A stretch of 56,310 nt of DNA, taken from positions 1-56,310 of the IMG/VR virus record IMGVR_UViG_3300044617_001003; one strand, 5' to 3'. Made by a program: the position numbers and the translations under genes. Below the pieces are notes generated by a model, which had not been told where the DNA came from, searched no databases, and worked only from the letters and a program-made list of their open reading frames with translations. Position 1 is the stretch's first letter. The number at the start of each line of letters is the position of its first letter. This document shows, piece after piece, positions 7,345 through 40,659 of this stretch. The stretch is from a virus.

Positions 7345-8197
7345 GCGGTATGACGGCTGCATATCGGCAGCCGGGATTGAGGTACATTTGATATCCGGCC
7401 TGCCGCATGGTTTTGTGCAGGGCAACGTGTTCGCAGTCGCCGCCGACGTATTCGACCCCGTCCGCGAAAAAAGCCTGAGACCGGTAGACCGCCAGACCGC
7501 CGAATGCGGAGTTCATCGGGATCGGCTCGCTGCCGACCGGCGGCAGGAGTTCGTGAAACCAGCCGTGTTGCCGGCGGTCCTCCCACCAGTTCAGACGCGC
7601 GGCCCAGGCGTCGTACTGCATGACCCTAATCGCGCCCTCTTGCTCGGCGTGCGTGGAGGCCCAGAGCGAAACACTCGCCATGCCGCCCGGCCGAAGCGAT
7701 CGGCACTGCTCGGTGCCGTAGGCGTCAAGCCAGCCGATGCTGTTCAGGACGCCTTCCGGCGAGAACCCGCCCGTGGGATCCATGTCGATCACGACCACGA
7801 AGTCGCAGTCAGGGGCGTTTTGAACAGCCCAGCGGCGGCACCGGTTTCGGTACTCCGCCAGGGCGATCGTTCTGTCCTCCTCGAACCCCCGATAATCCGG
7901 CCTGTGCAGCGTGGCGTGTTCGTGGGTAGCCCACGGCCGGGACTCGGCGAACGAGGTGAGCATCTGGGTGGTGCCGTCGGTCGAGTCGTTTTCGTAGACG
8001 TAGAGCGACGCACTCTTGAAGAACCCGGCCGTCTCTTCGAGGAGAACCAGCGTGTTTTCGAGAAACGGCATGGCGTCCCTGGCGATGGCCAGGAAGCACA
8101 CCGACGACCTCGCGGCTGACTCTCGCCCAATGGCGACGTATTTGTCGTAATGCTCTTGATACGGCGGCTCGATTCGCCAGAAATCTTCAGGCTTCAT
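7322..8197 (-). CDS. Glycosyltransferase (GT-A fold, cap-like)
   Basis: A 291-residue protein. VCFLAIARDAMPFLENTL begins the nucleotide-sugar fold, VYENDSTDGT is a donor-loop motif, and DFVVVIDMDPTGG supplies the metal-binding DxD. Later NSAFGGLAVYRSQAF fits acceptor-side loops of glycosyltransferases acting on glycoconjugates. The start at 8197 overlaps the FkbM gene by 11 bases, so the two enzymes probably act in one modification pathway. The target could be host surface glycan or a virion protein. Confidence 0.75.
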   Translation of the reverse strand: MKPEDFWRIEPPYQEHYDKYVAIGRESAARSSVCFLAIARDAMPFLENTLVLLEETAGFFKSASLYVYENDSTDGTTQMLTSFAESRPWATHEHATLHRPDYRGFEEDRTIALAEYRNRCRRWAVQNAPDCDFVVVIDMDPTGGFSPEGVLNSIGWLDAYGTEQCRSLRPGGMASVSLWASTHAEQEGAIRVMQYDAWAARLNWWEDRRQHGWFHELLPPVGSEPIPMNSAFGGLAVYRSQAFFADGVEYVGGDCEHVALHKTMRQAGYQMYLNPGCRYAAVIPHGVAAQD

Positions 8198-8798
8198 TGA
8201 GGAATATCCAGAAGTGGTTCGGGTGGGCGCCTGGGTACGGGTGCGGAATGGCCATAAACTTCTCGTGGCCGAGCCGTTGAATCGCGTGGCTGACATCTCG
8301 CCTGTTGTCATGCACCTCGATCAGCCACCGCGTCCCCCTGAACTTCTCCGGCGTCGCGCCGTTCAGAACCAGATGCTCTGCGCCCTCAACGTCGATTTTC
8401 ACAAAATCGACGACACCGCCAGCGCAGGCGTCAAGGACGTAGTCCAGGGTTACTGCGGGGACACTCTCGACATCTATGACAGATGTTTTTTCTTGTCCAC
8501 CGCCGCCAATAGGGTGTGTCGGCAGGATCGACGATTGGTCAGGCTTGTCTCGGAGGTAAAAGTCCCTCTGACCGAAGGCGTCGGCGCACGCAAACTCGTG
8601 GAGCGTGGCGTTCCTGGGGATATGACGCCGGATTCGCTCTGCAGCCCGGCGGTCGGGCTCGACGGCAACGACGCTGTCGAAATACTGCGACAGCCAGTGC
8701 GTCCATTCGCCCTTGTTGGCCCCGATATCCAGGGCTACACGACGATGGCCTCGAAGAAAAAACTCGGCGTAATCCTGCAGCAAAAAGACTTCTTCCAT
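8187..8798 (-). CDS. FkbM family SAM-dependent methyltransferase
   Basis: A 203-residue protein with the SAM-binding motif LDIGANKGEW (residues 23-32), the acidic end of strand 2 (AVEPDR) and the FkbM signature VDFVKIDVEGAEHLVLNG. FkbM enzymes O-methylate sugars or small molecules. Overlap with the glycosyltransferase gene suggests it methylates the sugar that enzyme adds. The start at 8798 follows the upstream stop by one base. Confidence 0.8.
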   Translation of the reverse strand: MEEVFLLQDYAEFFLRGHRRVALDIGANKGEWTHWLSQYFDSVVAVEPDRRAAERIRRHIPRNATLHEFACADAFGQRDFYLRDKPDQSSILPTHPIGGGGQEKTSVIDVESVPAVTLDYVLDACAGGVVDFVKIDVEGAEHLVLNGATPEKFRGTRWLIEVHDNRRDVSHAIQRLGHEKFMAIPHPYPGAHPNHFWIFLNEA

Positions 8799-8799
8799 G

Positions 8800-9078
8800 C
8801 TACACGCACCTCTGCAGAAAAGTCCTCGCGTCCTTGGCCGAATAGACGACTGCGCACGGGCACCCAGCGGCAGCCAGTTCGGCCATTCGTTTTTCCTGAA
8901 TCTTGCTGGGGGAGTTCCCAGGCACTTTGGCCTCCATCCAGACCGCGCGGCCGCCCTTGATGGCAAGAACGTCGGGAAGCCCGGCCATCTGGTAGGCGCT
9001 GCCATGAATCTTGACAGCGAACCAGCCCAGAGACCGTGCCTCTGCGACGACTTTCGTGACGATCGTTCGCTCCAGCAT
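8800..9078 (-). CDS. VRR-NUC domain nuclease
   Basis: A 92-residue protein made only of a VRR-NUC fold. GLPDVLAIKGGRAVWMEAK gives the catalytic D...E-x-K of PD-(D/E)xK enzymes, and SPSKIQEKRMAELAAAGCPC is the typical following helix. Stand-alone phage VRR-NUC proteins resolve branched DNA, such as Holliday junctions, before packaging. Length is normal for the phage form. The shared GTAGCCTA element (TAGGCTAC on this strand) lies 22 bases ahead of the start. Confidence 0.85.
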   Translation of the reverse strand: MLERTIVTKVVAEARSLGWFAVKIHGSAYQMAGLPDVLAIKGGRAVWMEAKVPGNSPSKIQEKRMAELAAAGCPCAVVYSAKDARTFLQRCV

Positions 9079-12601: not shown

Positions 12602-12993
12602 TGGTCTCGACTGTCTTTCTCGAAAAGAGTTGGGAACAGCCCGGCCGACTTCGCGACCATGAGCATTCGCGGGTGAAACACCGCGACAGACCCGAGTTCC
12701 GCGACTCCGGCGGCCTTCAGGCCAGCGGCGGCGAAGGTCGCGACGCCACGGCCACGAAAACCGCCGTGAACAAAGGCTTCGAGCGTGTCCCAGTAGCCGG
12801 CCCGCTCCTCTTGCCAAGGCTCCGAGCGAACCCAGCCGACCATCCGGCCGCCGCTGAACACCAGGGCGATATGGCCACGGTAGACGCCTTCGCGGAGCGA
12901 CTTCTGAAAGTCGCTGCCTTCTTTGGTCAACGCTTCGACTGCAGCGAGTTCCTGCCGAGAGCAGTCATCAAGCGGTTTGACTGTGCATTCCAC
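12586..12993 (-). CDS. GNAT family acetyltransferase
   Basis: A 135-residue protein. The acetyl-CoA pyrophosphate loop is visible as GFRGRGVATFAAAG, preceded by a strand with ALVFSGGRMVGWVRSE and followed by FHPRMLMVAKSAGLFPTLFE. Length is normal for a minimal GNAT fold. The substrate cannot be predicted; phage GNATs may modify host proteins, nucleotides or antitoxins. Overlaps the DNA methyltransferase gene upstream by 26 bases. Confidence 0.8.
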   Translation of the reverse strand: MECTVKPLDDCSRQELAAVEALTKEGSDFQKSLREGVYRGHIALVFSGGRMVGWVRSEPWQEERAGYWDTLEAFVHGGFRGRGVATFAAAGLKAAGVAELGSVAVFHPRMLMVAKSAGLFPTLFEKDSRDQWKRA

Positions 12994-13717
12994 GAGAAGC
13001 CTCCATGATTCTCTGGGCCGCGATCAGCCCGTACTCGGGATTGAGTTCAATTCCCGTTGCGTCCCTGTCCATTTGGACTGCTACTGCACAAACCGTGCCA
13101 GATCCCGCAAACGGATCGAGAACAGAGTCGCCAGGATTGCTCGACACGCCGACGATCCGGCGGACGAGTTCCTCTGGAAGTTGCGTCGGCACGCCCTTGA
13201 TTCGCTCGCGAAACGTGCCGCAGACCCGGCTCACCTGCCAGACATCGCCCATGATTTTTTTGCCGTCGGACGCAGCCCGCCGGTCGCCGTATTTTGCGTA
13301 CCTCGCTGACGGCACGAGGACCGCGTCGCGGTTGAAGGTGAACCGCCGGCTGTCCTTCGTCGCGTAGAAGATCGGCCTGGAGCATCGGCCGAACTTGCTG
13401 TGGCAGTAGACGCCGAACGTCTCGTGCCATGTAATCCTGTTTCGCATCGTCATGCCGGCGCGCCGGATGGCGATGTCGATGTCGGCGCCATGCTCCTGGC
13501 CGCTGATGACCCAGAGCGAGCCGTGCGGCTTGAGTACCCTGCAGCACAGGCCTACCCACTGCTCGCACCAGATGTCGTAGTCACCCCTCCTATCCGCCTT
13601 TGCGCCGGCCCCGTAGTCGATGCCGATGTTGTACGGAGGGTCCGCAATGACGAGGTCGACGCTCTCGCTGGGCATGGCCCTCATCGCGTCAGCGCAGTCG
13701 CCGATGATGATGCTCAT
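12968..13717 (-). CDS. DNA methyltransferase, DPPY type (N4-cytosine or N6-adenine)
   Basis: A 249-residue protein. The catalytic DPPY is at residues 26-29 (VIADPPYNIG), and the SAM-binding motif follows near residue 212 (DPFAGSGT), the beta-class order. The region between is about 180 residues and would contain target recognition. AAGGAG precedes the ATG at 13717. With the MT-A70 enzyme at 3565-4116, the phage carries two different base methyltransferases and no obvious partner restriction enzyme, so protection from host restriction is likely. Confidence 0.85.
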   Translation of the reverse strand: MSIIIGDCADAMRAMPSESVDLVIADPPYNIGIDYGAGAKADRRGDYDIWCEQWVGLCCRVLKPHGSLWVISGQEHGADIDIAIRRAGMTMRNRITWHETFGVYCHSKFGRCSRPIFYATKDSRRFTFNRDAVLVPSARYAKYGDRRAASDGKKIMGDVWQVSRVCGTFRERIKGVPTQLPEELVRRIVGVSSNPGDSVLDPFAGSGTVCAVAVQMDRDATGIELNPEYGLIAAQRIMEASRGMHSQTA

Positions 13718-13965
13718 GGTTGCAACTCCTTTGCCCGCATCAACAGCCGCACGACCTCGGCGTGAGGCAGGCGCCCCCAGCCGACTGCACGGGCCGCGCT
13801 CTTGACCACCGCGTCGTCGCCACGCCCGTTGGCGTCGGCGACAACAATGAGGTTGCGAACGTGAGCCTCAAGCAGCGATATGCGTTCCTTCAGCGGCTCG
13901 ATCCGACCATGTAGCCTCGCGTTGCCGCGTATCGCACCGGTCAGTTCCTTTCGATAGTCCTTCAT
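13714..13965 (-). CDS. Coiled-coil protein next to a tRNA-like sequence
   Basis: An 83-residue helical, basic protein (IEPLKERISLLEAHVRNLIV). The ATG at 13965 is three bases beyond the 3' end of the tRNA-like sequence, so its leader would be the tRNA acceptor stem. The open frame continues upstream only as a translation of the tRNA T-arm (RVQLPPGAL), which is not protein coding. If a tRNA were processed here, the mRNA would be almost leaderless. Confidence 0.6.
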   Translation of the reverse strand: MKDYRKELTGAIRGNARLHGRIEPLKERISLLEAHVRNLIVVADANGRGDDAVVKSAARAVGWGRLPHAEVVRLLMRAKELQP

Positions 13966-13968
13966 CAG

Positions 13969-14057
13969 TGCCCCCGGCGGGAGTTGAACCCGCGTCTCGC
14001 CTGCAGCGCGTTTTATCCGTTGGCAGCGTGCGCACTCTGCGTCCAAACTACGGGGAA
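13969..14057 (-). tRNA. tRNA-like sequence, atypical or degenerate
   Basis: The 3' half is a perfect tRNA end: T-arm GCGGG-TTCAACT-CCCGC, then CGGGGGC and a discriminator A, with no encoded CCA. The 5' side offers TTCCCCG-TA, giving six of seven acceptor pairs (one of them U-G). The D-stem (GTTT/GAGT) is weak. A loop CTGCCAA would give anticodon GCC (Gly), but only about three of five stem pairs form, and the total of 89 bases is long. It may be a decayed tRNA, an unusual class II tRNA, or the tRNA-derived attachment site of the integrase. Confidence 0.4.
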
Positions 14058-14736: not shown

Positions 14737-15200
14737 GGCTCACTCCTGTGTGTCGCGGGGTAGCCTATCGACGAAATCCATTTCTGGCAAGCCTCGCGGA
14801 CGGCGTCGCTCTTGTGCTTGGAGGCACACCAGCGAATATACGCCTCTCCGTTCTCTGTTCTGGATGCCTGTGCAAGTGTCATGCCGGAGCAGATGCCCTC
14901 GAAAAAAACGAAGTCGTCGCTTGGCGCAAGAACTCCCTCGACCGCAGGAACGTGCTGCTGCCAGCCGCAAAACGCGCAGGCGATCAGCCACTGGCTCCGG
15001 TAGTCGTCGAGAATGTCAAAATAGGTAGCCTGACACTTTGGATTGTGGCAGGTGAAGTGCCCGTCTGACTGCCCGAGAATCGTCTCTGGCTCGTAGGAAA
15101 CAGACTGCGCCGGCGCCGGTGGTGGCTCCTGCTTTTTTGCGCGACGGGGCTTCTTGGACTTCTCTGGCTCCTCCGGCGAGATGTCGAACAGCAGGCTCAT
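14724..15200 (-). CDS. Zn-ribbon protein with possible exonuclease X C-terminal-like domain
   Basis: A 158-residue protein. After a Pro/Lys-rich N-terminus come CHNPKC and CAFCGW, a four-Cys zinc site (residues about 52-80). The second half, EGICSGMTLAQASRTENGEA then YIRWCASK and AVREACQKWIS, resembles the small fold found at the end of ExoX-like nucleases and in phage replication proteins. It begins in an ATGA overlap with the helicase gene and is probably part of the replication module. The domain assignment is weak. Confidence 0.55.
   Translation of the reverse strand: MSLLFDISPEEPEKSKKPRRAKKQEPPPAPAQSVSYEPETILGQSDGHFTCHNPKCQATYFDILDDYRSQWLIACAFCGWQQHVPAVEGVLAPSDDFVFFEGICSGMTLAQASRTENGEAYIRWCASKHKSDAVREACQKWISSIGYPATHRSEPCSS
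14760..14768 (-). promoter_or_regulatory. GTAGCCTA element, copy B
   Basis: On the minus strand this reads ATAGGCTAC, 24 bases ahead of the csrA start and inside the last codons of the gene upstream. TTGCCA lies 17 bases further upstream, so TAGGCT could serve as a -10 box. Confidence 0.5.
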
Positions 15201-17737
15201 ATCCGCACCCCCATCCGGAAGTCGACCGGGTCGTCGGAGATAATCAGTTCTCGCCTCGCCCTCGTCACGCCGACATACTCGACGCGACGCTCCTCGTCGT
15301 GCTGTGCCCTGTCGGACGACCGAGCCTCGTGGATCTTGCGGGTCAGGGTCGTCGACAGGACGACAACGTCGGCCTCCATGCCTTTCGCCGAGTGGACGCT
15401 CCCGAGGCGAATCTGTGGCCGTGCGGCCAAATCGGCGCCCCACTTCAGGGCCGCCGCCCGAAACTTCTCGCCGCCGTCGACCAGATCGGCCCAGGTTCCA
15501 CCAAGCACCCTGTCCACCATGGCCTGCGTCATGCCGGTGTCGCCGAGCGCCGACGGAAAGACAGCGTCCCAGCGGCGCTGCGTCTCCTCGCGGCGCCAGT
15601 TGGTCTTGGTGCCCCGCTCCAGCAGCGGGCCGTCCTTTCCTCGCGACGGAATCTCCTCGATGGCGCAGGCGAAGTCTTCGCCAGAAACAGCCTCGCCGTG
15701 TTCGAGATCCCAGAGCGCCCGGATCCCACGAAGGACCGCCGTGTCACTCTTTGCCTTGAGTTTCGCGAACGGCAGCCGCTTCTTGCGAAGCACTGCGGCC
15801 CACTCGTCCAGCATGAAGTTGCATCGGGCGAGGATCAGCGTGGGCTTCGTCGGATCGAGGCCGGGCACCACGCTGTCGGCACCCTGGCCGCGAGAAATCC
15901 TGCCGTCGTGGTCGGCCGGGGACACCTCCCTGTCGAAGTACCCCTCGTGCATTTGCCGCAGGCACTTCTCGCCGAGCGACAAGATCGGCGCGGGGCACCG
16001 GTATGACTTCGGCATGATCCGCTTCTTGTCGGCAGGCCACGACATGAAGTGCTTGGAGTCAGAGCCGCAGAATCCGTAGATCGAGTTCCCGGTGACATAG
16101 CCGTTTTCGACGACGTAGGTGTGGTATTTCTCGACTTCGAGGCTGTAGACCCTCGCCGTACTTCCAGGGGCGAGCCTGCGAATCGACTTGACGGCGACCC
16201 ACTCGCAGTGCGACCCGACCGTCCTGCTGCCTCGCGGCCCAGTTCCTCGCTTCTTCCTCTCCAGAACGCCGTCGATGAGCCGTGGCGCCAAGTGAATACC
16301 GGGCAACACATTGACAGCCTGAAGAAACCGGCCGGCGCGGCAGCCGTTCTTGCTCCTGTCTGCTTTTTGACAGAACGGAAACAGGATGTCTCGGTCGTGG
16401 TCGTCGAGGCATCGGCGACCGGAATCAGTCATGTCGCCCATTGCGGAGAACACGCCGTCGATGAACTCTCGGCTCAGGTTCGTCTTCCCGTGCGGCGGCC
16501 GAAACGTCACCTGCGGGATGCCGTACCGGCACGACACGATCTGCTCGTGCATTCTGGCATCGCGGTCGGTGTCGAACACTTTGAGAACCCAGACAGAGTC
16601 AGCGTCTTCTTGATTCATTCGCATCTTGAGCCTGAACTCGCCGTTCTTCTCGGATCGCTTTTTCGAGAACATCTGCACCGTACCTACCCGCCACCGGTTG
16701 CCTTTTCGCATCAGGTAGGTCGCGTATGCCTCGCGCTTTTTCGTTCGGACGTACCACTTGTGGTTCGTCGTACAGACTGACTTGGTGCCGTCCTCGAACG
16801 TGACCTCGATCAAGTCTCGCGAATCAACATCTCGCCACGCCTTTCTGAACGGGATCTGCTTGCTCGTTCCGTAGAACCTACCCTCGTTCTTCGAGAACGC
16901 GATCAGTTTGTCGGTCCTGGGGTCGAGATCCTCGATCGGCTTGTAGCCAGACGCGGTCAGGACGGGTGTCCCTTCAAGGGAGCATTGAAAGGGGTCTCCC
17001 GCGACGTAAACCCACGCCACCTCCGGCCCGCTGGCGAGCCGGCGGCAGACCTTGTCCACCAAGGCCGAGGCATCCTGTGCCTCGTCGAAGATCCACGCCC
17101 TCACGCCGGCCGGCAGTTCGCCTTCCGGGTCAGTGAAGTAGAAGCCGTCGGCCTCGAAGTGGATGCCGGCGTACCGGGCAAGCAGGTCCGTAAAGTCAGA
17201 CCTGTTCTCCAGACGCTTGGCCTGCTCGTACCGGTCAACCAACTGCTTGCAGCGGGCGAACGGCGGCACCTCTCGGCCGGCGCGCACCATCCTCTCAACC
17301 GTTTTCTTGAGCGGCTCAATACGCGCCCGGCTGACATCCCAGCATTCCAGTGCTGCGGCCGCCGTCTTGTCTCCAGCATACCTGACCCGGCCGTCGTCCT
17401 CGTCCAGTAGCGTCCGGATGTCGACCTTCAGGGCTCCGGCAAGCCAAATCTGGCTCTCCTTCTTGTCGTCGATCATCTGGCCCTTCACGATCCCCAACTG
17501 CTTGTGGCAGATGCCGTGGGCCGTCTTGAACCAGCCGTCTCGGGACAGAACCTCCACCGGAACGCCCCAGGCGAGGCTCGCCCGCTCGACGGCCTCCTGC
17601 CGGGCGGCCTTCGTCATGCTTGCGAAACCGACAGCAAACGGGCTGCCGCCGAGGGCCGACTTGGCCCCCTCCATGACCCGGAGAAGTTCCGTAGTCTTCC
17701 CAGACCCCGCAGATCCAATGAGCATTGCTGTTTTCAT
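15197..17737 (-). CDS. UvrD/Rep-like superfamily 1 helicase containing an intein
   Basis: An 846-residue precursor; about 546 residues remain after intein removal. Helicase motifs: Walker A GSAGSGKTT (8-16), motif II IFDEAQDA (216-223), motif III GDPFQ (247-251) split by the intein and resuming at SIYGFCGS, then KSYRCPAPI, HSAKGMEADVV and VEYVGVTRARRELI. This is a 3'-5' DNA helicase of the UvrD/PcrA class for replication or repair. The start at 17737 has no ribosome site; the frame extends to a TTG at 17827 through a CPVC sequence that is probably regulatory DNA. Confidence 0.9.
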   Translation of the reverse strand: MKTAMLIGSAGSGKTTELLRVMEGAKSALGGSPFAVGFASMTKAARQEAVERASLAWGVPVEVLSRDGWFKTAHGICHKQLGIVKGQMIDDKKESQIWLAGALKVDIRTLLDEDDGRVRYAGDKTAAAALECWDVSRARIEPLKKTVERMVRAGREVPPFARCKQLVDRYEQAKRLENRSDFTDLLARYAGIHFEADGFYFTDPEGELPAGVRAWIFDEAQDASALVDKVCRRLASGPEVAWVYVAGDPFQCSLEGTPVLTASGYKPIEDLDPRTDKLIAFSKNEGRFYGTSKQIPFRKAWRDVDSRDLIEVTFEDGTKSVCTTNHKWYVRTKKREAYATYLMRKGNRWRVGTVQMFSKKRSEKNGEFRLKMRMNQEDADSVWVLKVFDTDRDARMHEQIVSCRYGIPQVTFRPPHGKTNLSREFIDGVFSAMGDMTDSGRRCLDDHDRDILFPFCQKADRSKNGCRAGRFLQAVNVLPGIHLAPRLIDGVLERKKRGTGPRGSRTVGSHCEWVAVKSIRRLAPGSTARVYSLEVEKYHTYVVENGYVTGNSIYGFCGSDSKHFMSWPADKKRIMPKSYRCPAPILSLGEKCLRQMHEGYFDREVSPADHDGRISRGQGADSVVPGLDPTKPTLILARCNFMLDEWAAVLRKKRLPFAKLKAKSDTAVLRGIRALWDLEHGEAVSGEDFACAIEEIPSRGKDGPLLERGTKTNWRREETQRRWDAVFPSALGDTGMTQAMVDRVLGGTWADLVDGGEKFRAAALKWGADLAARPQIRLGSVHSAKGMEADVVVLSTTLTRKIHEARSSDRAQHDEERRVEYVGVTRARRELIISDDPVDFRMGVRI
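16085..16984 (-). other. Intein within the helicase gene (300 codons)
   Basis: The intein begins with Cys (CSLEGTPVLTASGYKP), has the block B TTNH about residue 73, and ends VYSLEVEKYHTYVVENGYV then TGN, followed by Ser of the extein. It is inserted between Gln and Ser of GDPFQ-SIYGF, a central, highly conserved helicase motif. The usual penultimate His is Gly here, which can slow cleavage but is known in active inteins. About 180 residues in the middle (including HEQIVSCRYGIPQ and FIDGVFSAMGD) are the size of a small homing domain, but no certain LAGLIDADG or HNH motif is visible. Confidence 0.9.
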
Positions 17738-28608: not shown

Positions 28609-29085
28609 CTACAACTCCAGAACCCTGCCGTCGAACAGAATGGGCACGCCCAGGCGGCCGGCGAGCCAGCGAATGCTGACGCCGCCGTCCCGCAGGATTG
28701 CCTCGCCGTCTCTAATCAGTGGCCGCCACCGCTCCGGCGTCGCGTCGACCGTGACCACGCTGCCGACGACTTCCCGGATCCCGCAGGCTACGATCGCCCG
28801 AGCGCAGTCCGGGCAGGCGAACCACGGGCAGTAGAGCCTCGCGCCCAGCGTCCTGTGGCCGTCGCGAGCGGCGGCGTAGATCGCGCCCCTTTCGGCGTGT
28901 TCGATGACCTTGTATTTCTCGGGCCTGTCGTGCCTGATCGGAGAGCCGGGCGAAAACCTGTTCGCCGCCATGACCAGAACATCGCCATTACGGACGAGGA
29001 CTGCCCCGTTCTGCGTACTCTTGTCCTGGGAGTACGAGACGCCGTAGACCGCCGCGAGCCGCAGGAACTCAAGGTCGCTGATCAT
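28609..29085 (-). CDS. dCMP/deoxycytidylate deaminase
   Basis: A 158-residue protein with zinc ligands His63 in EHAERGAIYAAA (Glu65 catalytic) and Cys91/Cys94 in CPWFACPDCARAI. It turns dCMP into dUMP, the precursor of dTMP. No phage thymidylate synthase is seen, so the host would finish the pathway. The start overlaps the metallophosphoesterase stop (ATGA). Confidence 0.85.
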   Translation of the reverse strand: MISDLEFLRLAAVYGVSYSQDKSTQNGAVLVRNGDVLVMAANRFSPGSPIRHDRPEKYKVIEHAERGAIYAAARDGHRTLGARLYCPWFACPDCARAIVACGIREVVGSVVTVDATPERWRPLIRDGEAILRDGGVSIRWLAGRLGVPILFDGRVLEL

Positions 29086-30089
29086 GACACGAACACCGGG
29101 AGGACTTTTGTGACCCTGTCGTGGTCGTGATCGACGATGATCAACGACTGCGATGGCGGCTGGTATTCCGCCTTGATTCTGTCGGCGAACGCGTTGTGGC
29201 CGATCAGGCTCCCGTTGGCCACGAAGCGATACGGGAGCCACGAAAAGCAGTGCCAGTGGCCGAATACGTCGAGTGACACTCGCCTGGAGATATTCCAGTT
29301 CGCGATGGCTTTGTTGGCCGGAATGGTCAGCCCGCCGACGCCGCCGCCAAACCGGATCGCGTGACCGTGGTGAAACCTGACCAGAAAGCCGTCGAGATCG
29401 ACGACATTGAGATACCCCTTGCCGACCTGCCACTGAACGTGCTTGCGTTTCTCGGACGCCGCCATCGTCAGGTAGAGGTGCTGCTCGAACGAATGCTCGT
29501 TCTCGGTGGCGATGCGGGGCTTGTGTGTCGTTCTGCCGTGATTTCCGCTGGCCGTCGGCACCAACACCGGCGCGATTTCGGCCATGGCGTCGATGACGCC
29601 GCCCAGCCGCTCGCCGGCCCACCGCGTTGCAGCCAGCGGCGCCAGTTGCGTCGTCTCGACGAGGTCGTCGTGGATGTGGCCAGTGATGAAGTCCCCGAGG
29701 GCGGCGACTACGATCCGTCGGATGTTGGTCAGAGACTTCTCGTGCTCAATGAGCATCGACGCCCGCTGCACGAGTTGCTGGATCCGGCGCTCGGCGATTT
29801 CGAGGGAGTAGTCGTTCCCCGGGACGTTCGTCGCCGGGTCGACTCGTTCCTCAACGTGCCAATCGGAGCAGACGAGAATGGCCGTGGCGTCGGGCCGGCC
29901 GCCTCCGGACTTGGCCCTGCCGATTTTCTTGGGCCGCACGCCAGCCAGCGCCGTCAGGCTTTCGTGGGCCTGCTTCTCGCGTTCGAGTTGCCCGAGGGCC
30001 GCCTCGTATTTCTTGCGGAGGGCCGACAGTTCGCCGCGCAGTCGCGAGGCTTCTGCGTCCGCCGCAACCGCGATGACTCGATCTTTCAT
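29082..30089 (-). CDS. Calcineurin-like metallophosphoesterase with N-terminal coiled coil
   Basis: A 335-residue protein. Residues 10-50 form a coiled coil. The phosphoesterase motifs follow in order: VCSDWHVEE, GDFITGHIHDD, GNHGR, FHHGHAIRF and FGHWHC. These are all metal-binding positions of Mre11/calcineurin-type enzymes. Probably a DNA or nucleotide phosphodiesterase; phage examples often sit beside dNTP enzymes, as here. The start at 30089 overlaps the stop upstream (ATGA). Confidence 0.8.
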   Translation of the reverse strand: MKDRVIAVAADAEASRLRGELSALRKKYEAALGQLEREKQAHESLTALAGVRPKKIGRAKSGGGRPDATAILVCSDWHVEERVDPATNVPGNDYSLEIAERRIQQLVQRASMLIEHEKSLTNIRRIVVAALGDFITGHIHDDLVETTQLAPLAATRWAGERLGGVIDAMAEIAPVLVPTASGNHGRTTHKPRIATENEHSFEQHLYLTMAASEKRKHVQWQVGKGYLNVVDLDGFLVRFHHGHAIRFGGGVGGLTIPANKAIANWNISRRVSLDVFGHWHCFSWLPYRFVANGSLIGHNAFADRIKAEYQPPSQSLIIVDHDHDRVTKVLPVFVS

Positions 30090-30636: not shown

Positions 30637-31875
30637 TCAAGGCAGTTTGCGCGTCCACCAAGTTTGATCTACGCCAAGTTCGACGCGGCCTCCGAACGCC
30701 TCATCGACAGCCCGCTTGACCCCCCACTTGCCGCGCCGCTCCATCGGGTGATCGTAGTCGTGGCCCCCGATCCAGCCCCCCGGCCGAACCTTCGGCAGCC
30801 ACGCCGCGATGTCTGCGGCAACGGCCTCGTAGGTGTGTTCGGCGTCGATGTAGCAGAGGTCAAGGGAGCCATCTTGGACAGCGCTGGCGCCAGCAATGCT
30901 GTCACAGTCCAAGATTCTGGGAGAGTACGGCGCCGTGAGCCCAGCCGCCCTGCCCTTGACGACCGCCCACTGGGCCTCCGTCAGCGAGGCGGCCAAGTCG
31001 CCGCTGTCCCGGTATCGGTCGCCCGCGACAGACCACTGATCGACGAGCGTGGCCTTCGACTGCGGGCGGCGTGACAGCACGCCGAGGGCGTTGTACCCGT
31101 CAGCGACGCCGACCTCGGCCCACGATGACCCGTCTGCGAGCCGCTGCGCGATTTCGTCGCACGGCGACTTCTGCCACCGCGTTCGCTGAATCCGCGCCCG
31201 GCGCCTGGTCGGCCCGGTGAAGTGGTAGATGAAACCGTTCATCACTCCCGTGTTGTGTTCCGGCCGGTGGGCCTGTGCGGCTGCGACCACGTTCCATTCG
31301 TGGGGGAGCCAAGTCACTTTTGCGTCGGTGTTGTCGATGAGGACAGATAGGGACGCCTGCTCCGGCAGTCTCCATTTCGTCCACCCCGCAGACTCGCCGA
31401 CTCCCCGGAGGTGCCGAAACAGTTGCTCGTGATGCCGGGGCGAGTAGAGAAACAGCCCGCCGTTGAGATGCTTGCTGTCGTGGCAGGGCTCCATTCCCAT
31501 CCGCGCCGCCCAGACGCGGACGCACTTGTCTCGGTGCCTGCTGATGATCGACGCGGCGCTCTCTGCGCGGTCAAACTCCGGTGGGTCGAACTGCCGTGCG
31601 GAAACGACGCCGATGTGGTCTTCTGGCACGAGGTCAAACGGGCTGGGCGCATCCCACCGGATCAGCATATCGGCGTCCAGTTGGATCACGCGGTCGTAGT
31701 CGGCCAGCCTGAGAGGCGCGAACGCCTTCTGCCAGAAGTGATGGATGTCGCGGAGCGGCTCGGTGAACTCGACGAAGTCGCACCCCCACCTGTCGCACGC
31801 CGCCAGAAACGACTCGCGGCTTTTCTGGTGGATGCAGCCGCCTCCGACATTCAAGACAGCCAAGGCCAGTTTCAT
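30637..31875 (-). CDS. Two-domain glycan enzyme: glycosyltransferase plus SAM methyltransferase
   Basis: A 412-residue protein. Domain 1 (1-240) is a GT-A glycosyltransferase of the glycogenin/GT8 type: DRVIQLDADMLIRW with DxD at 67-69, then KHLNGGLFLYSP. Domain 2 (about 250-412) is a class I methyltransferase of the Methyltransf_24 type: WAEVGVADGYNALG, CYIDAEHTYEAVAADI, PGGWIGGHDY. The two steps, sugar transfer and methylation, probably act on the same glycan. It is next to a second two-domain glycan enzyme, with a 4-base overlap. Confidence 0.8.
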   Translation of the reverse strand: MKLALAVLNVGGGCIHQKSRESFLAACDRWGCDFVEFTEPLRDIHHFWQKAFAPLRLADYDRVIQLDADMLIRWDAPSPFDLVPEDHIGVVSARQFDPPEFDRAESAASIISRHRDKCVRVWAARMGMEPCHDSKHLNGGLFLYSPRHHEQLFRHLRGVGESAGWTKWRLPEQASLSVLIDNTDAKVTWLPHEWNVVAAAQAHRPEHNTGVMNGFIYHFTGPTRRRARIQRTRWQKSPCDEIAQRLADGSSWAEVGVADGYNALGVLSRRPQSKATLVDQWSVAGDRYRDSGDLAASLTEAQWAVVKGRAAGLTAPYSPRILDCDSIAGASAVQDGSLDLCYIDAEHTYEAVAADIAAWLPKVRPGGWIGGHDYDHPMERRGKWGVKRAVDEAFGGRVELGVDQTWWTRKLP

Positions 31876-33146
31876 GCCCCACCTCTGACAACGTGAGAAA
31901 TCGCCGCAGCCTTCTGATCGTCGCTGGGCGATATGCCGAGGAAGTCGACCATGCTCTCGACCGCCTGCGCCGGGTCGGCCAGAAGTGCGTCGTGGCGAAC
32001 GTCAAGAACCGCTTCGGCCGGGAGCGACGCAAGGAACTTCTCCTTCTCCTCCCAGAGCCACCGCTGGACGGCCTCGCACTGCTCGTCCGTCGCGGCCAGC
32101 CACCCGCGAGACTTGGCGCTGCGTCGCTTCAGCGAATCAATGGAATCTGCCAGCGGCCTGTCGCAGTGAATCACCTTCAGGCCGTCGCCGCAGATCGAAA
32201 CCAAGTGGTCGCCCGCCGCGCACAGGTGCGGATACTTTCCGCCCACCAGCCCGCTGCCTCCTCGGCTGGCGATCCACCGAGAGAGCCGCTGGCCGAACTC
32301 GCCCTGGTCTGCGACGCCCACGGTCGGGAACCTCGCCGCTCGCTCGCATAGCCGCGCCAGACCGACGGCCTCGCCGCCGCCGCCGTTGCGGGCCTCGTAT
32401 CCGCCTAGTTTGTCGCCCATGTTGACGCCGAGTTTGTGCAGCATCATTGCAATGCAACTCGACCCGCTTCGGTGCAGCCCAACGACCGCCACGAACGGCC
32501 GCGAACTGGACTTTCGGTGCCACCACCGCTCAGGCACCTCCTTCCACGAAACGTCGCTCTTGCCGTCAGCGGCCTGACCGCAGAGCCACTCCTCCGGTGC
32601 GTAGCACGGGATGAGTTTCGCCTTGTGCATTCGGCCGTAGTGATGGTCGATATGGTTTCGGTCTACCCAGTGATCGCAGGCGTTGAGCCACTGGTAGGCC
32701 TCTCGCATCGCTGCGGCCCCACGCAACGCATAGGCGTGCGTGCGGTTGATGTTCTTTGCCTGCACCACGCCCGCCGCGATCCGCTCTGCTCGCTTCAGAT
32801 GCTGGCCGCCGAGATACGCCTGCCCCCAATCCTGCGGAACCGCGCGGAAGAATCCGTCGGCCTTGTCCGAGAAGCCATCGCAGAAAGTGGCGTCGTCCTC
32901 GAAGATCAAGACGGACTCGACGCCGTCGTTGAGGCACTGCTCGATGATGCTCAGGTGGCTTCTGTAGCACCCCCAGGCGCCGCCGCCCTGCTTCCACCAC
33001 GCCGGGTGCGGGGCGAGTTTTCCGTCCACGGCCGGGAAGACCTCGATCTCGCCCAGGCGGAAGTCGACAGGGACTCGCGACAAGAATGCTTCGAGCCTTT
33101 CGGGCCGCCGCTTGAGCGACACGACGCAGACGCGGCCGAACTTCAT
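31872..33146 (-). CDS. Two-domain glycan enzyme: GT25-like glycosyltransferase plus sulfotransferase
   Basis: A 424-residue protein. Domain 1 (1-210): VCVVSLKRRPERLEAF, WGCYRSHLSIIEQCL and LIFEDDATF (acidic residues 83-85) are the signatures of GT25 lipooligosaccharide transferases. Domain 2 (about 217-424): VAVVGLHRSGSSCIAMML is the PAPS 5'-phosphosulfate loop of sulfotransferases, with VIHCDRPLADSIDSLKRR as the 3'-phosphate side. It would transfer a sugar and then sulfate. Such a fusion is unusual for a phage and may decorate virion or host surface. Confidence 0.8.
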   Translation of the reverse strand: MKFGRVCVVSLKRRPERLEAFLSRVPVDFRLGEIEVFPAVDGKLAPHPAWWKQGGGAWGCYRSHLSIIEQCLNDGVESVLIFEDDATFCDGFSDKADGFFRAVPQDWGQAYLGGQHLKRAERIAAGVVQAKNINRTHAYALRGAAAMREAYQWLNACDHWVDRNHIDHHYGRMHKAKLIPCYAPEEWLCGQAADGKSDVSWKEVPERWWHRKSSSRPFVAVVGLHRSGSSCIAMMLHKLGVNMGDKLGGYEARNGGGGEAVGLARLCERAARFPTVGVADQGEFGQRLSRWIASRGGSGLVGGKYPHLCAAGDHLVSICGDGLKVIHCDRPLADSIDSLKRRSAKSRGWLAATDEQCEAVQRWLWEEKEKFLASLPAEAVLDVRHDALLADPAQAVESMVDFLGISPSDDQKAAAISHVVRGGA

Positions 33147-33535
33147 TGTGCGCCCCACTTTCCGACCGGGCACGACTGATCGGCCCACGACAGTTTGCTC
33201 AGGAACTTCTTCTCTCGGACGATCGGGCAGCCGCACTTCTTGCAGGCACTGCCGTCGAAGAACTCGCACCCTCGGCAGATGGCGTACCGCCGCTCCACCT
33301 CAGACTCGGTCGCCATCGGGGCTCCGGCGGCAACGTGCTTCGAGGCCGCCGAAACGAAGTTGATAGCCTTGCGAAGCAGCGTCGGCCCTGGCTTCGGGCG
33401 CGGGTAGTCCTTGTGCGACTCGTCCACCGTGATTGTGTCGCCGTCCTCGCTGACGATGCACGCGCGCACCTCGTCAAGCGTGTATCCGCGCTCGCTGCAT
33501 CGCTTCTCAAACGATGATCGGCGGCCTGTGATCAC
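33143..33535 (-). CDS. Cys-rich zinc protein of the tail region
   Basis: A 130-residue protein started at a GTG in a GTGA overlap (33532-33535). The C-terminal half has CRGCEFF, CKKCGCPI and CPVGKWG, a multi-Cys metal site seen in many phage tail-cluster proteins. The N-terminal half is mixed alpha/beta with VSEDGDTITVDESHKDYP. Confidence 0.65.
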   Translation of the reverse strand: MITGRRSSFEKRCSERGYTLDEVRACIVSEDGDTITVDESHKDYPRPKPGPTLLRKAINFVSAASKHVAAGAPMATESEVERRYAICRGCEFFDGSACKKCGCPIVREKKFLSKLSWADQSCPVGKWGAQ

Positions 33536-36303: not shown

Positions 36304-39300
36304 TTACAGGTTCAGGACACCGGGCGGTGCGCCGTTTTCTCGTGCGATCCGAACAAGTTCTTCGAGGCTGGACGACTGCTTCTGCAGTTCGACGAGGTCT
36401 TGGTTCCTGGCCGAGTCGTCGCCGCGCAGGAGCCGGTTGAGTTCGGCGGCCCCCTGAGCCGTCGTTACGTCGCTGGCCTGGAGCGCCGCTCGCGACGGCC
36501 CTTGCAGGACGGCGTTCTGGACTTGGTCGGCGAGGCCGAAGATGGCTGGGGCTGCGGATCGAAACGATTCACCTATCAACCGCTGCTGGTCTGCGGCGAG
36601 GTCTTGCGGGTTGCCGATCTGGCCGGCATCGAAAGCGGCCTGAAGATCGCGGAGGTTCCGGCCAAGTTCTCGGCCAGCCCTCTCGGCTGGACTGAGGGCG
36701 AGTTCGCGGCCACGGGCCTCGGCATTTTGCCGCTCCGCAATCGCGTTGGCTTCGTCTCTCGCCGCGATCGCCGAAGGGTCGGCCTGCGCGGCGGCGTCAA
36801 CCTGATCCTGCAGACGGCGTCGCTCCGCAATCAGCGCGTCGCTGTTTGCGGCATTGCCTGCCAAGAGCGACTCGTTGATCTCTCTGATTCGGCGCAGAGA
36901 CTCCGAGTTCGGGTCGACATCCCGCTCGATCCGCGTCCTGGCTGCGGTAACGGCATCCTGAACGCGAGCATCGGCAGCCCTCTGCTCGTCAAGGTCTCGG
37001 CGTGCCCTGTCAGCGTCAATCCGGTCGGCGTTGGCAGCCCCAGGCGCGGCGACCGCACGACGGGCCTCTTCCTCTCGCTGGGCGGCGGCCTGCACGTTTG
37101 CAGCCGACTCCTGAGCGGCCTTGTCGAGAGCCTCGGCAAAACGAGACAGCGCAACTGTGGCGGCCTCGACGGCAGCGGCCTGCTCGGCCAGACTCTGCAG
37201 TTGGGCCTGGGCCGCCTCCCTGACGACAGCATCCCTCGGGGACGCCTTCAGCGATTCTTCGACAGTCGTCCTCTCGGCCTCGATCTCCCGGAGCCGTCTG
37301 GCGAAGGCGCCGGAGCCGAAACCGCTTGACTGAAGCGCTGCCGCAGCACGTTCGGCGATAGCGGCTGGAGTGCCCTGCGGATCGACCGTTGACCTGATGC
37401 GGAGAGCCCTGGCGGCCTGTGTCGCTGCGTCCCGCTCGGCACGGCTTGCGTCAATCTTTGCCGTCTCTTCGGCGACGATGCGATTCCTCTCCGAGTCGTC
37501 GATCCTGCCCCTCGACAGGTCTTCGTTTGCCCTGGAGATTCGCTTCTCGGAGGCCTGAATGCCTTCGGCGAGGGCGTCGAGAGACCCCTGAATGGCGACC
37601 GCCTCGGGGATTCCGCGCTGAAGTGCGGCTGCGGCGTTCTCCTGCGCGGTGGCCAAGGACTGCGACGCGCTCTTGAGCGACTTGAAGAAGTCCGCAAGAT
37701 CGCCTTCGCCTTGCAGCCTGAGCCGAAGTTGCTCAAGTTCGAGAATCGCCTGATTGGCCGCCTGCGCGGCGGCCGTTTCAAAGCCAAATGCCGTCTGGTT
37801 GCCAATTGGCGACAGTTGGTCGATGAGATCCTGAATGCCGCTGGACTGCGCGGCGCGGTCGGCTGGCGAGTCCCCGAGCGGAAGCCCACGGGCGATGATC
37901 TGCGCCCGGCCGGCTGCCGCCCGAAGCAGCGGGCTCGCGTCGTATCCGAAGGCGGCGCCGGCCGACTCGCCGAGCCTGCCGGTCGCAATGGCGTCGACGG
38001 TCCCGGTGATGCCCTGAATGTTCCTTCTCGCCCGATCAAGGGCAGTGCCGACTCCGGCTACTGCGCCGGAAACGTCAGCGCCTGATGGCTGCCCGAGCGA
38101 GAGAAGCCTTTCTTCGTCTTGCGAAATGCGCCTCGCGAGTAGCGCCCGTTGGCGCCGGATGGCGATGGCCCTGCCCGGCGAGGAGGCCTCTTCCTGCTGC
38201 TGCGCAAGCCGCTCGTCCTGCGACAGTCGGCGGACGCCAGCAATGTCCGTCGTCAGGAGGGACGCGCCCTGGAGTTCTCGCTGCTGACGAACGATCTTCT
38301 CAAGCGAATCCGCGAACTCGCTGGCCGATCGCGCTGCCTCAGAGAAAGCCGCCGACCCGAGGTTGCCAAAAGACTCTACGCTCTGCGCGACTTGCGATGC
38401 GAGGTTCTTCTGACGCTCAAAAGCCTTGCCAAGCGCCTTGCTCGTCTCCTCCGCTTCCTTCGCCGCCGTGACGTACCGGAGCAGCGCGCTGACAACCTGA
38501 CCGCCAATGACAACGCCAAGGCCGATTGCAAGGCCGGTGGTTGCCGAGAGTCCGGGGATGATTCCGGACTGCCCGAGAAGCAGGCCGAGTTGCGTGATGT
38601 TGTTGCCGATCGCACGAAGGCGGTACTCAAGCCCGCCCGTCGCCGAAATCAGATCGTCGATGGCGAAAAGCCCCTGCTGCGCCGCCAGTTGCGCCACGGC
38701 GGCGCTGCCGACTCCAAAAGAACCCCTGTTCTTTAGCCCTCTTTCGGCTATGGCCCTGGCGCGGTCACGGCTAATGCCAATCGCGCCGCCCTCTCGGGAC
38801 GCATCAGATACCGTGTCAATAAATGCATCACTTCGCTGCCTTGCCGCGAACTCGACAGCGCGCCTGGCGCGGTTCCTGCTTTCCTCGCTCTTGAACTTTC
38901 CGTCGGCGATCTTCTGCTGCTTGGCGGCGAGTTTCTCAAAGAACTTCAGGTCTCGGTCGATTGCCTGCTCGACTGTTCTGCGGCCAGAAATGTTTCCTGC
39001 CTCGAAGTTTCCGGCCAACTGTCGCCCGGTAGAGATGAAACTTGCCGCGCGCTCAAGGTCGGCGCCGAGTTTGTCGCTGCGGCTGCCGGAGATGGAGAGA
39101 AACTGGTCGAACCGCTTTCTGGCAGTCTCCGCTGACTTGAGTTTTGACTCAAATGCGTCGAGTTCTGGAAGCAGCGCTGCCAGTTTTGCTCTGTAGTTGT
39201 CTAACCCCTGCGCGCCTGCGGCCGTCGTCTTTGCATCGAATGCTGAACGGAGTGTCGAGTTTGCGTCGGCGGCCAGTTTCCTGATTTTGTCGAACTCTCC

Positions 39301-40659
39301 GGCTACGCCGGCGCTCTTGAGGTCTTTGACCCTCGAAGAAAGATCATCGAAACGCCCCGCGACGCTTCTGTTGAACTCCTCTCGCGACAGGGCGATGTCT
39401 TCCCGAAGGTTCACTGCGGCAACGGACGCCTGTCGCCTTCTGCCGAGGATCGGGCTAGCGCCGATGATGTTGTTTCGCTGAGTTTGGGCGTCGCGCCTGA
39501 TCTTGTCGATCGTCCTTTCTGATTCAGTTCTGATCAGCGCGTCAGCCTTGTCGAAACCGCTTCTCCCGAAAGCCTTCGTCGCGTCTGCGGCTGCCAGCGC
39601 CTCGATGGCCTGCTTCGCCCGCTTCGCCGAGACCTCGCTGCGGTTGAGTTGCTCGATGACCCGGCCGACAGATGAGATCAGCCCGTCAAACCTCTGATCG
39701 TCGCCGTCTCGAAGTTTTGCCGACAGCGAGGACAACTTTTCGGTGAGTTTGTCGACCTGAGACGCGGCCTGCGGGGAGACAATCTGGCGGATGCTCGCGC
39801 TGCGGAGTTCTCGGTCAAAAAGGCTATTGATCGTCTCCTGGCGAGAGACCTCGCTGTCGAGCCTCTGCTGGGCGATGCCGCGAAACTGCAACTGTCGCGG
39901 CGTGACAGCGCGTCCGTTTCGCTCGGTGTTCGCGATAATCAGTTGCGCCCGGGCCACCCGGGCCGCAGCCCTGGCCACTCGCTCGGCGCTCTCCTCGGCC
40001 TGCACGGCGATGTCGGCGAATACATCCGACCGGAAGGCCGCCGGCACGGCCTGGGCGCGGTTTCGCAGGTCAAGCGACCGCTGGAGCGAGTCTCTTGCCC
40101 TGGCCTGGAAGAACGACCCACCCGTATTGTTGGCATTGAGGGCGTCGGCCAGCCGGCCAAAGTCGCCTGCGGCTGCCGTCGCCCGGCCGAGAGCCACGAT
40201 TCTGGCACGCAGGTTGTCGATCCGCTGCTCGGCGGCCGAGATCGTCGTCGTGCCAGAGCCGATTTCACGATACAGCCGCTGAAACCCTCCCTGAATCCGG
40301 TTGAGTTCCGGCGTCAGTTGGGACTGCAGGGCGTTCGACAGCCGCTCGACCTGATTTTTGACATCGGTCAGCGGCCTGCCGACATCCTCGAACGCTCGCA
40401 ACTGCTGCCGCAGCCGGCCCGGATCTGGAAGGCCAGCGCCGAGCCCCTGCCGCTGGAGGTTCTGAATCTCCCGCAGCGTCCGCTGGAACCGCTGGAGTTG
40501 CGTCAGCGTGCCGTTTAGGGCACGGTTGTCGAGATTGAACTGCAGCCCACGAGCCTGCTGGGCGAACTGATTCAGTTCACGGCGTGCTGTGCCGATCTGG
40601 CGACTGAAGTCCTGCGTGTTCGCAGTCAGGACAGCCGAGATTTTGCCGAGCAGTGCCAT
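36304..40659 (-). CDS. Tape measure protein
   Basis: A 1451-residue protein, the longest in the window and mostly helical with long coiled coils (Arg-, Ala-, Glu- and Gln-rich). A hydrophobic segment in the middle (IPGLSATTGLAIGLGVVIGG) is typical of the pore-forming part of tape measures. Its length sets tail length; 1451 residues at about 1.5 angstrom per residue implies a tail of roughly 210 nm. The gene follows the frameshifted chaperone gene, the usual order. Confidence 0.9.
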   Translation of the reverse strand: MALLGKISAVLTANTQDFSRQIGTARRELNQFAQQARGLQFNLDNRALNGTLTQLQRFQRTLREIQNLQRQGLGAGLPDPGRLRQQLRAFEDVGRPLTDVKNQVERLSNALQSQLTPELNRIQGGFQRLYREIGSGTTTISAAEQRIDNLRARIVALGRATAAAGDFGRLADALNANNTGGSFFQARARDSLQRSLDLRNRAQAVPAAFRSDVFADIAVQAEESAERVARAAARVARAQLIIANTERNGRAVTPRQLQFRGIAQQRLDSEVSRQETINSLFDRELRSASIRQIVSPQAASQVDKLTEKLSSLSAKLRDGDDQRFDGLISSVGRVIEQLNRSEVSAKRAKQAIEALAAADATKAFGRSGFDKADALIRTESERTIDKIRRDAQTQRNNIIGASPILGRRRQASVAAVNLREDIALSREEFNRSVAGRFDDLSSRVKDLKSAGVAGEFDKIRKLAADANSTLRSAFDAKTTAAGAQGLDNYRAKLAALLPELDAFESKLKSAETARKRFDQFLSISGSRSDKLGADLERAASFISTGRQLAGNFEAGNISGRRTVEQAIDRDLKFFEKLAAKQQKIADGKFKSEESRNRARRAVEFAARQRSDAFIDTVSDASREGGAIGISRDRARAIAERGLKNRGSFGVGSAAVAQLAAQQGLFAIDDLISATGGLEYRLRAIGNNITQLGLLLGQSGIIPGLSATTGLAIGLGVVIGGQVVSALLRYVTAAKEAEETSKALGKAFERQKNLASQVAQSVESFGNLGSAAFSEAARSASEFADSLEKIVRQQRELQGASLLTTDIAGVRRLSQDERLAQQQEEASSPGRAIAIRRQRALLARRISQDEERLLSLGQPSGADVSGAVAGVGTALDRARRNIQGITGTVDAIATGRLGESAGAAFGYDASPLLRAAAGRAQIIARGLPLGDSPADRAAQSSGIQDLIDQLSPIGNQTAFGFETAAAQAANQAILELEQLRLRLQGEGDLADFFKSLKSASQSLATAQENAAAALQRGIPEAVAIQGSLDALAEGIQASEKRISRANEDLSRGRIDDSERNRIVAEETAKIDASRAERDAATQAARALRIRSTVDPQGTPAAIAERAAAALQSSGFGSGAFARRLREIEAERTTVEESLKASPRDAVVREAAQAQLQSLAEQAAAVEAATVALSRFAEALDKAAQESAANVQAAAQREEEARRAVAAPGAANADRIDADRARRDLDEQRAADARVQDAVTAARTRIERDVDPNSESLRRIREINESLLAGNAANSDALIAERRRLQDQVDAAAQADPSAIAARDEANAIAERQNAEARGRELALSPAERAGRELGRNLRDLQAAFDAGQIGNPQDLAADQQRLIGESFRSAAPAIFGLADQVQNAVLQGPSRAALQASDVTTAQGAAELNRLLRGDDSARNQDLVELQKQSSSLEELVRIARENGAPPGVLNL

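Follow-up and report, generated by a model that had tools for sequence, protein, structure and literature searches.

The 56.3-kb virus record examined here (IMGVR_UViG_3300044617_001003, taken over its whole length of 56,310 nucleotides and referred to below as the window) contains a UvrD-like helicase gene whose motif III is split by 300 codons, raising the question of what these codons encode, whether a working helicase can be recovered from the precursor and how the insertion came to lie there. The record also encodes a terminase, a portal, a head protease, a major head protein and a primase/helicase module, the terminase, portal and head genes marking it as that of a tailed phage.

An intein in motif III of the helicase

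The helicase precursor is an 846-aa ORF on the minus strand, running from an ATG at 17737 to 15197, which matches the DNA helicase family PHROG 1967 (E 6e-45) and whose exteins score over cut-off with both UvrD_C and UvrD-helicase of Pfam. The original prediction was of a 300-residue intein between Gln and Ser of GDPFQ-SIYGF, in motif III of a UvrD-like gene; translation puts the in-frame 300-codon insert at exactly this point (16085-16984), and the Pfam and PHROG matches agree on the nature of the host gene. The insert is open from Cys1 to Asn300, with zero Ns in the sequence, and a second contig, L001, carries an identical insert, which excludes the sequencing frameshift that had been named as a possible refutation. 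The gene and its splicing parts are as follows.

15197..17737, minus strand: UvrD/Rep-like SF1 DNA helicase precursor, 846 aa (PHROG 1967 and Pfam)
16985..17737, minus strand: N-extein, from Walker A to GDPFQ (translation)
16739..16984, minus strand: Hint N-terminal half, residues 1-82, with Cys1 and block B T72/H75 (partial TIGR01445 match; structure Z 19.6; 25/25 invariants)
16085..16219, minus strand: Hint C-terminal half, residues 256-300, with block F (H288) and block G VTGN (TIGR01443 over cut-off; structure)
15197..16084, minus strand: C-extein from Ser+1 (SIYGF), with stop (translation)

Cys1, block B T72xxH75, a terminal Asn300 preceded by Gly, and Ser+1 are in place, in keeping with a class 1 intein; C1, T72 and H75 are invariant in 25/25 aligned intein sequences, and Cys1, Asn300 and Ser or Cys at +1 are retained in all six intein-bearing loci (carriers) examined. 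A profile search had been suggested as a check and its outcome was divided. On the Hint side, intein_Cterm (TIGR01443) reached 24.7 bits, over its cut-off of 15.6, with intein_Nterm (19.1 bits, or 21.6 with the insert alone; cut-off 24.5) and PF14890 (22.7-26.8 bits; cut-off 35.8) falling below theirs, and on the homing endonuclease side there was no match. An AlphaFold2 model of the insert built from 18 relatives (mean pLDDT 86.8, pTM 0.83) has the Hint fold, with Z 19.6 to the AceL NrdHF intein (6zgq; 142 aligned residues, rmsd 1.7) and Z 18.7 to an intein-like domain of bacterial origin. The intein signal is far beyond chance, and residues and model together support a class-1-type intein at GDPFQ/SIYGF that is predicted to splice.

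Distribution and mobility of the intein

The insertion site itself is already known, an intein being annotated in SPO1-type phage helicases. That of SPO1 gp34.33, a UvrD-type helicase of a Bacillus phage, and of its CampHawk relative lies at the same motif III site, is annotated as an intein in GenBank and is homologous to the window intein over its full length, including the middle; the SPO1 intein differs in being about 31% identical and in having a penultimate His, and the records name no nuclease type. Full-length homologues of the insert also occur in Streptococcus prophages, Vibrio phage RYC and IMG/VR phages. Inteins of the same make-up, with the kind of middle described below, are found in a Providencia plasmid gene, in cyanobacterial plasmid helicases, in a UvrD/PcrA-type helicase of a genome from the Streptococcus phylum and in adenine methyltransferases of Streptococcus suis prophages and environmental phages. 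Queries with the SPO1, Thermobispora and Stanieria sequences yielded no additional viral loci, and an 8-row alignment was too diverse for scanning collections.

Relatives of the C-extein were found at 80 loci, one of them truncated, leaving 79 with a readable junction. The exteins are joined at an empty site in 76 of these and the intein is present in three. The window exteins are 73-76% identical to those of the intein-free loci L081-L086, but the nearest intein to the window's (67%) sits in L002, where extein identity to the window falls to 48%; between L004 and L018 the exteins are 88% identical and the inteins 72%. Placing six carriers on the extein tree requires five gains or losses, and a single clade of carriers is rejected (p-AU 0.0003). 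We consider mobility of the intein between genomes well supported by these sequence comparisons.

A closer view is offered by L002, a carrier, and L114, which is intein-free and 94-97% identical to it in the flanks. The 120 nt past the insertion (L002:4913-5032 vs L114:3501-3620) contain 17 mismatches, whereas the 770 nt that follow have 14 (p 3e-8); at +1, L114 has the codon GCG (Ala) where L002 has TGC (Cys). This tract looks like a natural homing footprint of the kind expected from co-conversion; archaeal MCM inteins offer a parallel in a described change of Pro to Ser (PMC10643990). Residues at +1 of the empty sites include Ser (36), Ala (31) and Val (9), thus about half would need a change at +1, from Ala or Val, in order to splice. 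The apparent co-conversion is seen in the relative L002 and not in the window. A 1689-nt run without mismatches between the window (15305-16993) and L001 (3991-5680), spanning the intein together with most of the C-extein within 8.9 kb of surroundings that differ by 1.2%, is suggestive of a recent conversion tract, but its circular-shift p value is 0.10 and it was dropped as evidence.

The helicase and methyltransferase insertion sites have a common downstream coding motif, [S/C]-[I/L/M]-[Y/F/H]-x-[F/W], and this similarity may explain how the intein jumped between the two kinds of gene.

A candidate GIY-YIG-like core in the middle of the intein

Between the Hint halves lie two further segments, both on the minus strand.

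16505..16735, minus strand: candidate GIY-YIG-like catalytic core, residues 84-160, with Y90, R99-V-G101, R122 and E147 (topology, structural matches, invariants, hhalign to URI)
16220..16504, minus strand: accessory segment, residues 161-255, with helices at 172-182 and 186-195 (secondary structure of the model)

The middle of the insert has no match among the Pfam, PHROG or NCBIfam models. The original prediction had found no homing nuclease there that could be identified with certainty, and indeed no homing-nuclease profile matches; fold and motif nonetheless point to GIY-YIG. The Pfam GIY-YIG models detect no member of the intein family, PF01541 being without a match in the window record. 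Other identities were rejected: the LAGLIDADG model PF14528 finds nothing in the record, hhalign aligns just 10 columns with T5orf172 (PF10544), and the genes with PF01541 matches in some relatives are separate and free-standing, and so do not represent this domain. Sub-threshold PF01541 matches were also noted in other ORFs of L004 (14959-15168, 213 aa) and L018 (8049-8294, 176 aa), at a distance of some kilobases from the helicase with the intein. Vibrio phage RYC (AP014858), which has a GIY-YIG-like intein, contains a separate LAGLIDADG_3 match at 130729-130938 in a 1016-aa frame.

In the model the core has the predicted topology strand-strand-helix-strand-helix (beta-beta-alpha-beta-alpha), which would fit a core like that of UvrC, URI and Slx1, though Z scores are only 3.1-4.2. 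A structure search with the full-length insert was uninformative on the middle, as its matches were filled by the Hint part, and Foldseek of the domain alone against PDB gave nothing below E 1; the assignment is carried by a second look with VIA-align and by a viral structure library. In the former the 15 best rows from PDB are all GIY-YIG (including URI, Z 4.2; Slx1, 4.2; a 5hmC restriction enzyme, 3.9; and UvrC, 3.6), weak scores ahead of a first unrelated entry at Z 2.4. The viral library returned three intein precursors first, followed by named matches, most of them endonucleases of GIY-YIG type or from group I introns (E 0.005-0.3). An hhalign comparison with the URI family gave a weak match (score 19.4, 55 colinear columns); under a lenient shuffled-profile null (10.0 +/- 2.1) the same score was reached once in 300 and never with at least 50 columns.

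Eight residues of the core (Y90, M92, R99, G101, R122, W132, A143 and E147) are invariant in 25/25 sequences, down to about 26% identity. Among them Y90, G101, R122 and E147 form the GIY-YIG set (GIY Tyr, YIG Gly, catalytic Arg and Glu) in the expected order. R122 would be the positional equivalent of the catalytic Arg, lying later in the sequence than usual, behind a longer loop. The YIG Tyr, which is common but not obligatory, is replaced by Arg99 in all 25. The accessory segment has conserved positions of its own in the same alignment (L193, P203, A223 and N225) and presumably binds DNA. On this evidence from sequence and model we regard the middle as probably a diverged GIY-YIG nuclease with Arg in place of the YIG Tyr.

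This fold could also be retained without nuclease activity, the middle serving only to stabilise the Hint halves and the intein being passed on by descent or carried along passively in phage recombination, which alone can spread alleles. Loss of the YIG Tyr in every member and the failure of all GIY-YIG profiles are in keeping with such a history. However, the catalytic-type residues have stayed invariant despite low overall identity, dN/dS is low in the nuclease part of the intein and similar to that of the Hint part, and the site shows repeated gain and a conversion tract. Nor is the substitution decisive, as R.Hpy188I is assigned to the superfamily with a Lys in place of this Tyr (PMC2630997). 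We consider an inactive middle unlikely. Somewhat less likely again is that the middle is a nuclease with a different, perhaps new, fold and resembles GIY-YIG merely in the order of its secondary structure elements; the weak Z scores, the lack of a confident Foldseek match in PDB and the absence of the domain from Pfam, PHROGs and NCBIfam would fit this, but all 15 leading structural rows come from a single superfamily, the viral library agrees, and the invariant Y, G, R and E fall in order on the expected elements.

Predicted splicing with a penultimate Gly

The penultimate residue is Gly299, as originally noted, and the typical though non-obligatory His is missing. It has been lost only in the window's own clade and is kept in the SPO1, Streptococcus, phi92 and RYC versions. 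The RDF intein of mycobacteriophage Bethlehem, which also belongs to class 1 and has Gly at the penultimate position, undergoes complete splicing, and a change of this Gly to His slows the reaction (PMC5050341); the Bethlehem intein differs from the window intein in its host gene, and in that its splicing has been measured whereas the window intein is known from sequence. Since this Gly-bearing intein splices fully, and only the window clade has lost the His, the penultimate Gly gives no warning of dead splicing. The loss is presumably tolerated, with Asn cyclisation possibly aided by other residues such as the block-F His288, a position occupied by Asn in the relative L020. That the insert is a non-splicing intein-like domain within a dead or specially processed helicase, as this Gly and the sub-threshold intein_Nterm and PF14890 scores might suggest, is highly improbable given the Bethlehem precedent, the splice-site residues kept in 6/6 carriers and exteins that make up intact helicases.

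Proposed mechanism and relation to known systems

We propose, with a probability of roughly 0.72, that the insert is a mobile class-1-type helicase intein with a diverged GIY-YIG homing endonuclease, which splices, cuts empty alleles and spreads with co-conversion. Judging from their anatomy, the Hint halves would excise the intein and ligate GDPFQ to SIYGF, and the GIY-YIG-like middle would cut intein-free helicase alleles near this junction. Repair off the intein-bearing copy would then spread the intein and co-convert the flank, bringing in the +1 residue required for splicing; for these latter steps there is comparative support in the relatives. A broader proposal, to which we give slightly better than even odds, is that phage helicases, plasmid and bacterial helicases and prophage adenine methyltransferases share a widespread, undescribed intein family which homes by an embedded GIY-YIG endonuclease with YIG Tyr replaced by Arg, jumps between unrelated genes via similar DNA just past the two insertion sites and supplies the +1 residue by co-conversion at alleles where it could not otherwise splice.

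The arrangement resembles LAGLIDADG and HNH inteins (e.g. PI-SceI) in its homing logic and in having an endonuclease domain between Hint blocks B and F, but the window middle lacks a LAGLIDADG or other Pfam nuclease match and its fold suggests GIY-YIG. With I-TevI and SegE, GIY-YIG homing endonucleases encoded in group I introns or by phage genes that stand alone, it shares the predicted core topology, the Tyr/Gly/Arg/Glu set and a presumed role in phage homing; it differs from them in its location within an intein, in the Arg at the YIG Tyr and in the longer loop before the Arg helix. The AceL NrdHF split intein also has a GIY-YIG nuclease at the breakpoint where endonucleases usually lie, that nuclease being a separate gene between the split halves (PMC7891396), whereas the window intein is one continuous polypeptide.

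A 2006 survey listed no GIY-YIG enzyme in inteins (PMC1564403), and in a survey of Jug phage the GIY-YIG genes all stand alone (PMC12363816). In the open-access literature that could be searched, GIY-YIG enzymes are described from introns, from genes of their own and from split-intein gaps, and we found no account there of one embedded in an intein. The helicase site and the SPO1 intein were thus known already, and what sequence and model point to as new is the GIY-YIG-like middle inside the intein. If this domain is active in homing, it adds one more catalytic fold to those that inteins have taken up and accounts for the hitherto unnamed middle of the SPO1 intein, itself long known. SPO1 in Bacillus subtilis provides a ready laboratory system, and L002 and L114 form a natural pair of carrier and empty alleles in which homing and the Ala-to-Cys co-conversion are directly testable.

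Other features of the phage record

A 1451-aa ORF without PHROG match lies at 36304-40659 of the window. A tRNA-Gly (gcc) gene (13968-14057, minus strand) overlaps the start of a small ORF (13714-14046). Several methyltransferase genes, together with genes for a dCMP deaminase and a protein resembling glucosyltransferases (8187-9005, 12968-13717, 28609-29622, 30637-31875 and 31872-33269) make DNA base modification possible in this phage.
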